NCBI RefSeq assembly: GCF_032854445.1
Contig: NC_088295.1
Coordinates: 81,450,644-81,514,643, forward strand
Origin: Liolophura sinensis
Lineage: Eukaryota; Mollusca; Polyplacophora; Chitonida; Chitonidae
Direction: 5' to 3'
DNA length: 64,000 nt
Shown here: one piece after another, positions 56,548-63,415 of the stretch
Position numbering within the stretch: the stretch's first letter is position 1
Layout of the letters: each line of letters begins with the position of its first letter
Program-made: the position numbers and the translations under genes
Notes under the pieces: generated by a model
What the model was told of the DNA's origin: nothing
The model's database searches: none
The model's input: only the letters and a program-made list of their open reading frames with translations

Positions 56548-56553
56548 TTTATT
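56548..56553 (-). promoter_or_regulatory. Candidate polyadenylation signal for the Ig/CCP/LDLa gene
   Basis: AATAAA on the minus strand lies about 93 bases after the stop codon at 56646. The position fits a short 3' UTR and supports 56646 as the true end of the gene. Confidence 0.6.
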
Positions 56554-56645: not shown

Positions 56646-59052
56646 TCACTCCGGAACACACTTAATTTCATCTGAGCCATCCCCGCAGTCATCGTCATGA
56701 TTGCACACCTTTTCTCTGGCGATACACTTGTCATTAAAACAGCGGTATTGTTTCCCACCACACCATTGGCCGTCCGAGCGTGCGCAGTTACATTCGTCCA
56801 TACCGTTGTAACAGTCCTTCCGCTTGTCACACACTCTGCTCACATGCACACATTGGCGATCTCCACAGTTGTATTCCTCTTCCGGGCAGCCGTGACATCC
56901 TGCTTCGTCCGAGCCGTCCGAACAATCATTCTCGCTGTCACACTGCCAGCGCGGGGGGATACAGTTCCCGTTACTGCAGCGGAAGGACACCAATGGGCAT
57001 GGGTAGACACCGTGTGAGGAGCAGAATGTAGTCCTTCGGCTGTAAAGGACTCTCCGACAGCATCCCCACTCCACGTAGCGTGTCCTGACCGGTATAAAGG
57101 ATTGCTCACCCTCAGGGCACGTCACTGTCCGGCATCTCTCTACCCGAGGGTTACAGTGAATAACTGGAAGAGTCAGAATTTCTCACTCAAGTTAGAGAAT
57201 CAGAGAGATATGAACGTGTCATGCACACGTTTTATTTAAATTAAGAAAGGACAGTAAATAATATGTTACTTCGGAGGAGGAGTGGGAATGGTCATCGCAG
57301 TTTTTTCTTGGTAACGCCATAAATCAACTTTTAGTCCATAATGCACTAGACCGTGGAATCCCCATGTTAGAGAAAACGGAAACACCATGGTGCCTCACCG
57401 GTTACCCTTTGCAAATATGACTAAAGGGCAAACCCGGGTTCGCGTGACGTCGGCGGAAACAGCTGGCATACGTTGTCGGACTATGGAAATAATTTGCAAC
57501 TGATAGGTTCAAATTGATAACATGGTTCAAAATGATAACATGGCAACTCCTTTTCAAAGTACGCTCTGAACTGCAAAATCTTGGCTTTGCACCATCACAA
57601 AATATAATTTCTTCTAACGTTTTCAAAATATAGACAATGCGTTATTTTCATCTGGAATTCGTGGGGGTTTGTTTGGAGGGAAGGGATAGGATTAGTACCG
57701 CATGGGTTTTGGATTAAGTTGTCGTTACTGGACTTGATCAACATAGCATCAGCTTGGACTGACGGCCTTTGGCGAATGATGTTGCATGTTCTAAACTATA
57801 GGCTGATAGGATGTGCTTTTACTGGCCACCGCCAGGCACCCCAGTGAGGTGCCGTCAGGTTTGTTGAGGTGTTACCAAAGACTTAATCCAGTTCCCACTT
57901 CATGCTGAGAAATATTCTTGATGAAAACACCAATGAAATATATAAACAGATAATTCTTGGATTAAATTATTGGTACACAGCAATATGATTTGTTCAATCA
58001 TGGGTGAACATTCACTTCCGGACGGACTGACGGATGAACTGACGGACTGTTCAACTAGTTCACTTACTTCCACACCTCTCCTCATCGTAGCCACCATCAC
58101 AGTCATAATGTCCATCACACACCTTGTTTAACGGCAGACATGCGCGGTCTCCTGGACAGGTGAACTCGTCTTGCCCACACCACGCAATCTCTGCCTCACC
58201 CAGAGGTGCCCATCCCCGGGCGCACCAAGCCTCGTCTGACCCGTCGACACAGTTCTTATCACGATCACAAACCTTTAAACGGAATAAAAAAACACCCCAC
58301 TGCAATACATTGTTTTGGAAAAGAAGTATATAAGAGGACTCAGAAGAAACAAAAAAATTGTGCGCAAGATCCCACGGGAACTTTCATAACCCAAAAATAT
58401 TTACATGTCCATGCATGGTAACAGTCGGGAAAAGGTGTATTCGATATTTATTCGAATTTCGAGTTTAAAAAGTACAGCTTTTGAACAAGACGGTTAAGTC
58501 GTTATCACAAAAAGAGAGGTAAAGAGTAAAATTTTACAGAGCCATCTGCTGCTCGCAGCGTGTCTTACATAGTCAAAGTCCACACACTGTCCGTCCCGAC
58601 ACCGGAATTGGGATCCGTCACACGGGGAGCACCCCTTCTCATCTGTGCCATCCGAGCAGTCATTATTTCCGTCACAGACGACTCCATTCCGTACGCAGTT
58701 GCCATTAACGCAGGGGAAACCCTTAGAGCACGGCTGCAGGCGGAAATTCCTCTCACACACCATTTTGCGCATGTCATACAAAGCACTTCCACAACATCCC
58801 CAATGGCGACTGTCTGCATCACGGGGTATCATGTAGTGCGCGTGCGCGGAACAATTCAAGGAGAAACAATCTACCTCTGTTTGATTGCATCGGATTTCTG
58901 ATTAAGGGAAGTAGTTAGAACAAAGATTATTACAGTAGTCGGGCATGAAAACTATTCGCACATATGGATATTGTAGATTCTTCACAGGTAGTTGGGACAT
59001 TTTCCAAAGAGATCAAAAGGCATTTGACTAAAACACCCACCCCCAAAACGGC

Positions 59053-59116
<64 letters not shown>

Positions 59117-62100
59117 TGTACAGTTGGTGCCGCGCTGAGATGAATTAGTCTTTGCCTTAATATTAAGATTTAATCACAGGATATATGTTAAAAAGCAGCT
59201 TATTTTTAGAACGCTTCTTCATCACCATATGGTTACTGATTCAGCCAAAGATTTTATACAGTAAATGAGAAACTAGAGGGCGACTTAAATTCTCAAGAGC
59301 ATCAACCTGAAAATACGAACAAAACAAACTAACAGGGAATGGCAACCGCCGTGACGATATCAGGCCGTTTTCCTTACCAAGACAAGAAGGTGGTTTATGG
59401 GACCATTTTCCATCCGCCTGACAACGGGTATGTCGTGAGGACCCGTCAGTGACAACACCGCTGTTACACCTACAGAAAAAATACATGTTCTCATAGTTAA
59501 AACTCTCACAATTATCACAGTTTACTTTGAATATCAACAACGCCAGTTACAATTTTCTGTTAAGACAACCACAATCATATTAATAGCAAGAAGTGATCCT
59601 GCATGCATGAAGGCGAGCTCTGGACTAAGACGTTCTTTCGAAAAATCAACGGAAGTTGTGTATGAGCATGTCAAGTGAAGCTTACATCTTACCAAAAGTA
59701 AAATATCCCTCCCAGGGTGGTTTTATTGCCAACTAGTCTTCCCTCATTGAACCCAGGTGGTGGGCCACAGTCTATCTCTGTAATAGATGGAGAACTGTTA
59801 GTACGGTGAGTTCCTTATGAAATACCCCAGCCAGAGATAGGTGGATTCCAACACTTTCTGATCCAAGTGCACGTTAATGACCTGACATAACGCCTTAAAT
59901 GACTCAACCTTACACAATTAAATTCAGATATCTAGTACGCTAAAATCTCTCCTAATTGCTATAAAAAGGTTCTTCATATACTTTTACAGAGAGGTTAATA
60001 ATGCTTGATAGGTTGGTGAACAATGAAATATAGTTTTATTTAATTTAATCAGACATGGGATAGGCCTATTCCTCATGAGTCATCTGGAATTTATGTCAGT
60101 AATTTTACTGTATGAAAACTTGATCTGACCGACACAATTTGGAACCGGATCACTCCATGTTCCGTTAGGCTTGCAGAAAATGTCCGTGGGTCCGTCCAGA
60201 CGGTAACCAGGGAGACAGGAGAAATACGTGTGGTATGAGCGGCCATTGCGAGCTGTCCTCGCCACCAAATTAGGAGTAACCTCCAGACAGGGACAAACAG
60301 AACCTGTACAGAAAATCAAATGAGAAAATAAAATCACGTAGTAAGCAACAAAGAAGATTTGTCGACATCGACTGTGCAAGCACGTATTCTCCTGTTCTGT
60401 CGCAGAATTTATTATGTTTGCGACTACATCTGTTCAAATAACAGGAAATTATGAAATCCACTGGTTTATTACCTTGGCAGACAGGAGAAGGTGGGTACCA
60501 GTTGCCTCCAATCCGACAGGTGCTTACGTTGGCTCCATCCATGGCGTAGCCCTCAGCACACCTGAACACTGCACGACCGCCCAGCTTATTGTCCTCCTCC
60601 AGTAAGATTAGGTTCTCAGACGTGATCACAGATTCTGGACACGTCCAGTCTAACAACAAATTAGGCAACATTGTTATGAATTACATCCGGGTTAATTGTT
60701 GGACTCAATGATTAAGTGGACAATATAACAATCCTTTTAATGCAGTTCGTTAGTTTAATGTAATCGGAATTTCAGTTTACCTTCAACCGTTATGTCAATG
60801 GTTGTCCTCCCGGTTTGCTGTAGATTAACACACGAGAATTTCCCTGAATCTGATTGGCTGATATCCGCTATTTTCAATTCCAGCCCAGAATCTGCTGTTT
60901 CCCTACTTGGATATGACTTCCGGTGTTCGTTCACCCAGTACAAGAACGCATCAGATGAGCTGTTATAGCGACACGTGAGGATCACCTTGGCTCCAGGACG
61001 AACAGCCAATCGCCCGTTGGGTGTGATAAGCTGTTGTCCTTTTTTAACTCGAATCTCAACTACTGGAGTGGAGTTGCCTGAAAAATTAAAACAACAATTA
61101 TACAAGACATTGCCTTTACACAGATTTGTAGATTTGAGTAAACGGGAGGCATTCATAAAAACGTATTCTTAAATTAAAATTTCAACTTATAAGAAGCTGC
61201 AAGAAGCGTCAAGAAATATTTAAGCCGGTATCCAACGCCTTTATGCAAAATAATTTTCAACAACTTTTCTGAAAAATAAAGAGGAAAATGTTTTAGTTGT
61301 GTGCCTCTTATTGTTACTGAATTACTCAATAAATAATGTGGTTCTCACCTGTTTTTTGTTGGTTTGGCGTACAGTATGGAATCTTATCACTCCATTCTCC
61401 ATTAACACAAGCTATGTTGTGCTTTCCATGAAATATAAATTTACCAATGTCTACACACCGGGCCTGCAACTCGGTACCATGGGGATAACGCGCTGACGAG
61501 TTGCCTGGCAATTGCTCATAATTAATGAAGAAGAGGATGTTGTCGCCTGGGACCCGGATGTCGCATGCAGAGAACGGCACTCCATCCGTTCCAGCGCTGT
61601 CTACATAACAGAACAAAAACACTTGACTAATCATATCATTGCAGAGTGTATATAGCTTTCATCTTTAGACTTATCAGGATACTAAAACGCTTTTCATCGA
61701 TATGACTGTCAGGTTGTCAGATGGGATTGATGACTGCACGGGATGAAGGGAGGGGCAATGACCTGATACAAGGCATAACCATGTCCCATCAGCCCTTTTC
61801 AACATTTAATCACATGGGTAAAAACACCTATACATAACGTCTATAGATATTCACTCAGTTCAGTTACATGCTTAACCATTGGTTTCGTGGTTTATGAAAC
61901 TATTTTCACATAAACCATGCACTTCTGTAAATAACAAGTCTGTTGTTTGTTTCCTCTGAGTACTGAAATTTCAAATTCCCTCATTCCCACCCATATATTG
62001 CACAATAGTTTGTTGTCGGGATACGGCAGAAATAGTGGCGATGTGGCATTAAGCCATCATCATTCAATGGTTCACAATAGTTTTGTTGATTCACAAAATG

Positions 62101-63415
62101 AATGACGTTTACTGATACCTTTACACTCAGGCGGTGAGTCCGACCAATGGCCGTCGTTGTTACAATGGACGTAATCTGGACCAACCAAACTGTATCCCTG
62201 ATCACAAACAAACCGAGCCACATCCCCGGGTTTATTTCCATACGCAGTTACCTCCCCATAGCTTGGAGTTTGTATGCATGGACAGGATTTCACTATGGAA
62301 CATGAAAAAAAAAATAATAAAAATAACAGATTAGGCCGAAAGGATAGATTTTGGCAGAAATATTTGATCACTTACGGTACCAGATATGCAGGCAACGTTT
62401 GCACGGTGGGGCTTATTTAATAATGATCTGCTTGTCCATATCAAGATATTGCAGACCGATTACTTTATAATCGGTACAACGGCGAAAACAAAAACACCAA
62501 TCAAATATATAAATATATATAATCGGTACAGTAATCATACATAAGATATCCTACCTTTCACTATTAGAATGGCGCTGTGAGTTACCTCCCCTGCAATATT
62601 CGAAGCTTTACAGGTGTATACTCCGGCATCTAAAATTCTGAGATCTAAACACAAGACAATCAAATAAATGACATTTAACAGAAAATATTGGTTTTAAGTC
62701 ATACAGAGCACAAATTGCGTACCGCTACCTATGACCCTTCCGGCTTGGAGTCAGGAGGTTTAACTGTCAGATACCTGGTAAGTCTCTCTAGATAAGGTTT
62801 TATCCGCCAACTAGCCCGACCAATGGCATTTACGTGAAATATTCTTTAAAAAATAAAAAACACCATTAAATTTTGATCATATCATAATGGTATCAGGTTT
62901 TTGTAACAGGTCCGTTATACGGTGAACTTTATAAGCTGAAACCCAACGCCGAGGACAACAGGTATGACTCCTAACCCAGTCACAATTTATTGTTAGGAAA
63001 ATACCAAGACTGACAATTTCATTGTCTTACAAGTCTCCAGCTTACAAGGCACATGGAATATACAAAATACTAAGTAAAAACATTTACTCAACAACCGATC
63101 GATGTGCACATGCCGGCGACAGAAAAAAGCTGGTCTCTCAGTCACAAACTAGAGAGTGTGAAACAAGGTTCATCTGAGTGTGCTAGTTTCCATGATTACT
63201 ATTTTGAAGTATTAACAATAATCACACACCTGTAATCTGTAATGAGCCGGAGCTGAAAACTTTGACTCGCTCTTCAGACACTATTGGCGTGCCGTCGAGG
63301 TACCAGCGTACGATTGGCTGAGGTCTACTGGAAGCGTTACACGCCATCAGAGCTGTACTACCGACAGTCTGGTTAATGTCCTGTGGCGGAGTGTCAATGG
63401 AGGGCGGAATTGGGG
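56646..63415 (-). CDS. Large extracellular Ig/CCP(sushi)/LDLa protein, 3' part, 12 exons; 5' end outside window
   Basis: Exons, in transcript order: 63230-63415, 62555-62644, 62119-62292, 61349-61600, 60781-61077, 60473-60649, 60130-60303, 59693-59777, 59378-59469, 58569-58897, 58068-58272, 56646-57163. All are GT/AG and in phase, giving 858 residues. Order, counted from the first visible residue: I-set Ig (1-92), CCP (93-150), long CCP-like (151-234), Ig (235-333), three CCPs (334-392, 393-450, 451-509), a Cys module with HWGCCG (about 510-560), LDLa 1-3 (to about 687), a second Cys module with EWGCCR (688-740), and LDLa 4-6 to the stop. Most LDLa repeats keep the DCSDG(S/T)DE calcium motif; LDLa 5 has NGMDE instead. 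There is no membrane segment at the C terminus, so a secreted or matrix protein is likely. CCP plus Ig recalls the synaptic-matrix protein Hikaru genki, but the LDLa tail does not. Function is inferred as extracellular binding. Confidence 0.93.
59055..59113. repeat. (AT)n microsatellite
   Basis: About 29 uninterrupted AT units lie in an intron of the Ig/CCP/LDLa gene, between the last CCP exon and the first WGCC exon. Probably length-variable. Confidence 0.97.
62460..62520 (+). mobile_element. SINE tail fragment
   Basis: CGGCGAAAACAAAAACACCA followed by ATCAAATATATAAATATA matches the 3' tail of SINE family 2. It lies in an intron of the Ig/CCP/LDLa gene, opposite to transcription. Confidence 0.55.
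62700..62870 (+). mobile_element. SINE family 2, degenerate copy in an Ig-gene intron
   Basis: GGTTTAACTGTCAGATACCTGG, CCGCCAACTAGCCCGACCAA, then ACGTGAAATATTCTTTAA and AACACCATTAAAT follow the same order as the middle and tail of SINE family 2. The head is missing. It lies between the two exons of the first Ig domain. Confidence 0.6.

Follow-up and report, generated by a model that had tools for sequence, protein, structure and literature searches.

What is the short cysteine-rich segment, recognisable by the letters WGCC, that precedes each of two trios of LDLa repeats in the chiton Liolophura sinensis, and did the two resulting units arise by duplication of one cassette? In molluscs, extracellular proteins often contain small modules rich in cysteine that have no family name. 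The window analysed here is a stretch of 64,000 nucleotides (NCBI RefSeq assembly GCF_032854445.1, NC_088295.1, positions 81,450,644 to 81,514,643), and the genome searched comprises 632 contigs with 609,464,459 bases. The chiton genome was published under the name Liolophura japonica (PMC11068029); the species was later corrected to L. sinensis (PMC12441733). A sequence-only reading of the window had proposed a tandem duplication of a WGCC-LDLa-LDLa-LDLa unit, with a WGCC segment that it did not recognise as a named domain.

A mosaic gene and its duplicated cassette

Sixteen GT-AG exons with matching phases on the minus strand join to a single frame of 1045 residues, whose sole stop stands at the end (Table 1). 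The predicted protein has the domain order Ig1-Ig2-Ig3-CCP1-CCP-like-Ig4-CCP2-CCP3-CCP4-WGCC1-LDLa 1a-c-WGCC2-LDLa 2a-c, and most module borders of this mosaic gene lie in phase 1. Pfam found I-set, Sushi and LDLa in a typed protein version of 953 residues, which is without Ig1 and has a slightly different Ig2 joint; it reported four Sushi stretches, compared to five CCP or CCP-like segments in the protein. The model contains 13 N-glycosylation sequons and 79 cysteines, with odd cysteine counts in CCP1, CCP3 and LDLa 2b. No signal-peptide exon was found in the approximately 35 kb inspected upstream of the gene, and secretion is thus assumed from the domain content. When Ig4 was used as query against the genome, 16 matches were obtained at E ≤ 10, with a meaningful score only at its own locus (next best E 0.17); the mosaic gene thus looks single-copy in this genome.

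Table 1. Features of the mosaic gene, in window positions unless a contig is named.
Feature	Position	Strand	Phase	Basis
Ig1 and Ig2 exons (locus L007)	NC_088295.1 81,515,741-81,519,402, past window end	-		spliced frame
Ig3, first exon	63230..63415	-	1-1	domain search, spliced frame
Ig3, second exon	62555..62644	-	1-1	domain search, spliced frame
CCP1 exon	62119..62292	-	1-1	domain search, Pfam, spliced frame
CCP-like exon, four Cys, divergent	61349..61600	-	1-1	weak match to the gene's own CCP profile, E 0.016
Ig4 exon	60781..61077	-	1-1	domain search, Pfam, spliced frame
CCP2 exon	60473..60649	-	1-1	domain search, Pfam, spliced frame
CCP3 exon	60130..60303	-	1-1	domain search, Pfam, spliced frame
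CCP4, first exon	59693..59777	-	1 in, 2 out	domain search, spliced frame
CCP4, second exon	59378..59469	-	2 in, 1 out	domain search, spliced frame
Exon with WGCC copy 1, LDLa 1a and start of LDLa 1b	58569..58897	-	1 in, 0 out	acceptor aatcag, donor gtaaga; Pfam LDLa
WGCC module copy 1, six Cys, at exon start	58728..58897	-	1 in	module end approximate, before LDLa Cys1
Exon with remainder of LDLa 1b, CAR...W linker and LDLa 1c	58068..58272	-	0 in, 1 out	acceptor ttaaag, donor gtaagt; Pfam LDLa
Last exon with WGCC copy 2, LDLa 2a, 2b, linker, LDLa 2c, stop TGA	56646..57163	-	1 in	spliced frame; Pfam LDLa, three times
WGCC module copy 2, six Cys, spacing as in copy 1	56997..57163	-		cysteine alignment
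AATAAA, candidate poly(A) signal some 95 bases past the stop	56548..56553	-		sequence only

Both proposed units are present in tandem on the minus strand and share 67 of 168 aligned residues. Since they are joined by the open frame of 16 exons, they belong to the same predicted gene, and the genomic frame did not bear out the alternative of units in different genes. Unit 1 is spread over two exons (58897-58569 and 58272-58068), with an intron within its second LDLa that has no counterpart in unit 2, which occupies a single exon (57163-56646). The predicted splice borders bore out the phases given in the first reading: both units begin at a phase-1 intron and unit 1 also ends in one, while unit 2 ends at the stop codon. 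The symmetrical phase-1 borders and the likeness of the copies that mark a duplicated exon-shuffling unit are hence both found here, though copy 2 ends in the stop. At fourfold sites in conserved codons, 6 of 15 agree between the units and dS was not computable; the synonymous sites thus look saturated, so that the duplication is old and no assembly artefact.

Whether all four domains were duplicated jointly depends on more than the LDLa repeats. LDLa 1a and 2a are the sole reciprocal best partners (score 103), whereas LDLa 1b scores higher with 2c (99) than with 2b (91), and LDLa 1c higher with 2b (93) than with 2c (75). Due to this crossed pairing of the last two repeats, LDLa likeness by itself is no proof of a joint four-domain duplication. 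We nevertheless favour a single event for the whole cassette, based on the domain order, the exon phase and the CAR...WCG linker between the second and third LDLa, which is common to both units. The linker with WC had been noted before, although its C is in fact the first cysteine of the following LDLa repeat. The proposed shuffling unit is supported to this extent: in a mosaic protein of extracellular type, a cassette with phase-1 borders was duplicated in tandem long ago.

The LDLa repeats themselves are ordinary members of their family. Searched against Pfam at E ≤ 10, each unit yielded three LDLa stretches (PF00057, E 2e-24 and 3.6e-27) and nothing else; the two units score 85.9 and 94.7 bits, above the cut-off of 24.1, and all six repeats are full. 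In LDL-receptor repeats the acidic positions bind calcium. Here, these ligand positions are complete in four of the six repeats, with one D-to-N exchange each in 1b and 2c; unlike the family, LDLa 2b carries a seventh cysteine.

Some further features of the region and the genome may be recorded at this point. On the plus strand of the window, three open frames between 13925 and 17570 resemble by eye D-2-hydroxyacid dehydrogenase exons of the glyoxylate/hydroxypyruvate reductase type. The intron within Ig2 (NC_088295.1, about 81,515,970-81,517,330, in L007) contains DNA repeated in tandem, in which both strands have long open frames. Two Kunitz-like exons (L008 and L009; 78601-79299 and 94716-95294 in extended window coordinates, by eye) lie on the plus strand, opposite to the mosaic gene and upstream of it. 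Molluscan haemocyanin gave eight matches in one locus of the genome.

The six-cysteine module

In both copies, the module cysteines are located at positions 3, 10, 15, 34, 35 and 47, corresponding to the pattern C-x6-C-x4-C-x18-CC-x11-C. Apart from the cysteines, the copies have kept IxCN, IP, WG, LY and R. The motif (I/V)xCN near the module start, as given in the sequence-only reading, is present with I in both copies, the V stemming from an unspliced reading of a codon that is ATT after splicing. The cysteine of the terminal PC, previously counted to the module, is Cys1 of the first LDLa repeat; without it, the module proper contains six cysteines. Identity at non-cysteine columns amounts to 10 of 48, a value reached by 19 of 100,000 shuffles, while the BLOSUM62 score was reached by 2 of 100,000. 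The likeness resides in the second half, where 9 of 200,000 shuffles equalled the score and 442 the identity; taken by itself, the first half is borderline (9,834 and 8,631 of 200,000, respectively).

Structure prediction, which had been suggested as a check of the module, was run with the two-sequence alignment and gave a best module-only model with a mean pLDDT of 84.2 (pTM 0.56) and six strands (residues 10-14, 20-24, 32-35, 38-41, 46-48 and 51-53), but the other models reached mean values of 77.9, 47.1, 46.0 and 34.7. For the module together with the first LDLa, the best model had a mean pLDDT of 74.6 (other models 58.8 to 36.9) with a poor LDLa part. Foldseek revealed no PDB relative for either model; at E ≤ 10 it gave 27 matches for the module-only model (best E 3.1) and 48 for the module-LDLa model (best E 1.3). 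Based on these models the module fold is likely beta-rich; given the disagreement between models, the two-sequence alignment and the missing Foldseek relative, the fold itself is not secured.

The statement that the WGCC segment is not recognised as a named domain withstood these searches, as no named domain in Pfam, NCBIfam or the PDB sequences claimed it. NCBIfam gave no match to the module for either copy at E ≤ 10, and a search of PDB sequences at E ≤ 10 gave none with a single copy or with the two-row profile; a galaxin query against PDB sequences found none either. No description of the module appeared among the papers listed in the literature searches, and among the matches listed for WGCC as a word, none concerned a protein motif by its title. 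With the two-row profile, 20 pattern stretches in viral and 32 in prokaryote contigs were obtained, none of which was confirmed. The module gave no match to the annelid linker family, where the controls were equally silent.

Within the chiton genome, a coarse first pass of protein searches retrieved the two window copies and two chance matches (L005, E 0.65, and L006, E 1.4), which were rejected as further modules from their translations. Pattern searches yielded 6 and 23 matches, of which none but the copies in the window is certainly a module. The 23 matches to WGCC-x4-Y compare to 22 for a reversed-pattern control; they comprise the two window copies, seven with a stop inside the matched letters and 14 others. 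No evident module was seen on reading these 14 sites, and the cysteine is at the right place in two of them. One (L046) scores 14.8 bits and has stops nearby on both sides. The other (L016; small contig C15, 589,491-589,517, minus strand) has the open frame C-x4-C-x19-WGCC-x11-C and scores 24.0 bits to the module profile; it is without the first cysteine and IP, and no LDLa, CCP or Ig match lies within 9 kb (L086). When WGCC...LY was kept fixed, 124 of 40,000 random sequences attained this score, a null made harsher by flanks that were in part drawn from the mosaic gene; with four genomic sites containing WGCC...LY, about 0.01 such scores are expected by chance. This site is a weak candidate for a decayed third module, or a chance match.

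The lack of a clear further copy in the genome would agree with the module being an ordinary lineage-specific cysteine-rich linker, whose CC-Y-C hairpin arose by convergence and which forms no family beyond this gene. Convergence is easy for small cysteine-rich stretches, and the copies show weak conservation in their first half. On the other hand, the six cysteines are identically spaced and W-G, L-Y and I-P were kept despite long divergence, which argues for a constrained fold. We therefore regard the linker explanation as possible but somewhat unlikely.

Likeness to galaxin, VWC and trefoil

In the galaxin literature, the repeats are described as standing in tandem, each unit having two di-cysteine motifs, and galaxin-like di-cysteine motifs are discussed for biomineral matrices (PMC2726143). 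The chiton genome contains at least 137 matches to the galaxin family PF24748 at E ≤ 1, with 150 of 375 candidates scored; neither WGCC copy is among them. Some of these matches are probably spurious, as several of the loci contain other repeats or no galaxin repeat in the frame read. Long galaxin-like arrays occur on contigs C7 (58.45 Mb) and C2 (19.08 Mb), the open frames being 2552 and 2035 codons long, respectively. We read 22 galaxin loci and used 11 for a position matrix and 10 for profile comparison. Excluded from the galaxin profile were L026, L027 and L030, owing to other spacing, and L029, L031-L035, L038 and L039, which have no galaxin repeat in the chosen frame; L018 was replaced by L020. 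The genomic galaxin half-repeat thus obtained reads CC-x4-Y-x6-CC, and n = 11 was found in 84 of the CC-xn-C spacings counted.

Both WGCC copies contain CC-x4-Y-x6-C in their second half and share with galaxin the Y, N/D/S, R, T/K and aliphatic positions. Using the position matrix (44 half-repeats from 11 loci), the non-cysteine score of copy 1 was reached by 95 and that of copy 2 by 15 of 200,000 shuffles of their own residues. In the profile comparison, the two-row module matched 36 galaxin rows with P 81.3 and a score of 27.0 over columns 29-50 (E 1.2e-5 for one comparison). None of 1000 cysteine-fixed column shuffles reached this score, the best attaining 22.0, and controls in the same comparison remained low (LDLa P 0.9, CCP 0.4, reversed module 7.9, trefoil 0.4). 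Taken singly, copy 1 gave P 72.2 and copy 2 P 7.8; when a galaxin HMM was run on a small set of frames, the copy-1 exon was found at E 0.0037 and copy 2 was absent from the best 12 matches. The galaxin half-repeat signature is hence present beyond the cysteines, in single-sequence comparison mainly through copy 1. What had been called a faint likeness of copy 1 is stronger than faint (P 81%), yet it is limited to the second half and mostly to copy 1, and no family cut-off was reached.

These data could indicate that the module descends from one galaxin repeat, captured by the mosaic gene in a genome rich in such repeats and since diverged. Nevertheless, Pfam gave no galaxin match for either copy at E ≤ 10, the alignment covers 22 columns only, and the module differs from galaxin in its architecture: it contains one CC and forms no array, a lone cysteine stands in place of the second di-cysteine, and an extra N-terminal half contributes three cysteines. 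Moreover, copy 1 matches Carb_bind (PF10645) at E 0.057, and a galaxin locus likewise brushes this family, so that galaxin is not alone in having such a hairpin motif. Specifically, the galaxin loci L019 and L022 gave weak matches to IGFL (PF14653; E 0.086 and 0.034) and to Carb_bind (E 0.018), all under the cut-offs. A common CC...Y...C hairpin may lie behind these weak matches. Galaxin ancestry of the module hence appears doubtful to us.

The first half of the module has the spacing of the VWC second half, C-x6-C-x4-C ahead of a later CC, as in the VWC domains of this genome, and RCNQTEVDC of copy 1 can be placed alongside RCNQGDVEC of a VWC locus (L060). It is nonetheless improbable that a VWC-type domain decayed into the module with its second half kept (C-x6-C-x4-C-P ... 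CC), considering that P drops from 12.5 with six rows to 7.8 with 26 rows, that this score is equalled by 26 of 1000 shuffles with cysteines fixed, leaving the non-cysteine likeness not above shuffles at 1%, that the next cysteine and the C-terminal CPxC of VWC are missing, and that Pfam found no VWC match (PF00093) at E ≤ 10, the ten cysteines of that family not being present. The likeness remains a lead, perhaps by chance. Trefoil (PF00088) likewise has six cysteines including an adjacent CC pair, but its core spacing, C-x4-CC-x10-C, differs around the CC; Pfam gave no match and profile comparison gave P 0.4 with six rows and 0.2 with five.

In conclusion, the observation is confirmed and the interpretation given by the sequence-only reading is partly supported: the duplicated cassette is real and old, and its unclassified six-cysteine module is galaxin-like in part.

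Possible working of the protein and its meaning

Taking the gene, the cassette and the module into account, we consider it fairly probable that the locus represents the 3' end of a chiton gene present in one copy and encoding a secreted or extracellular mosaic protein, in which a cassette with a partly galaxin-like, beta-rich six-cysteine module was duplicated long ago; the resulting tail would bind at two places. Here, the last 20 residues of the WGCC module would form a galaxin-like CC...Y...C hairpin, and the module could act as a disulfide-stiffened spacer which ends one domain rod and sets the next LDLa trio. The LDLa repeats would bind calcium and basic patches of ligand proteins, and the Ig/CCP part might anchor the protein to a surface or matrix, enabling the calcium-stabilised, two-armed tail to grip a partner at two places. 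As the cysteine count is odd in three domains, at least one cysteine may bond between chains, and unpaired cysteines could thus link chains covalently, possibly into dimers. By inference from its domains, the protein would be secreted and serve as an adhesive scaffold whose tail carries LDLa repeats twice.

A more specific function, as a synaptic or neuromuscular scaffold like fly Hig/Hasp or worm LEV-9/LEV-10/OIG-4, could be proposed by analogy, since CCP, Ig and LDLa are module kinds in common. According to the review PMC9083331, five CCP modules accompany one Ig in Hig and eight accompany one WAP in LEV-9; LEV-10 contains LDLa and CUB, and OIG-4 a single Ig. The likeness to Hig, Hasp and LEV-9, with CCP and Ig modules within one extracellular chain, is one of module kind only. 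In contrast to these proteins, the chiton protein adds two WGCC-LDLa3 cassettes, its module order differs, and Pfam reported no WAP or CUB in the 953-residue version; furthermore, the LDLa of LEV-10 is described in the same source as dispensable. We judge a synaptic or neuromuscular role unlikely.

Returning to the adhesive scaffold, the module might tentatively be regarded as a new domain family that folds on its own and occurs in molluscs or more widely in lophotrochozoans, a galaxin-type hairpin capping LDLa trios in a surface or matrix mosaic, although we deem this unlikely. If true, the WGCC family would connect ligand-binding LDLa rods to the di-cysteine proteins known from biomineral matrices. 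The presence of a galaxin-like hairpin in an Ig/CCP/LDLa mosaic encoded by a single-copy gene would mean that the motif serves adhesive or signalling proteins too. The profile of the module is directly testable on molluscan proteomes, and the module with its two copies provides a compact case for the origin and spread of small disulfide modules.
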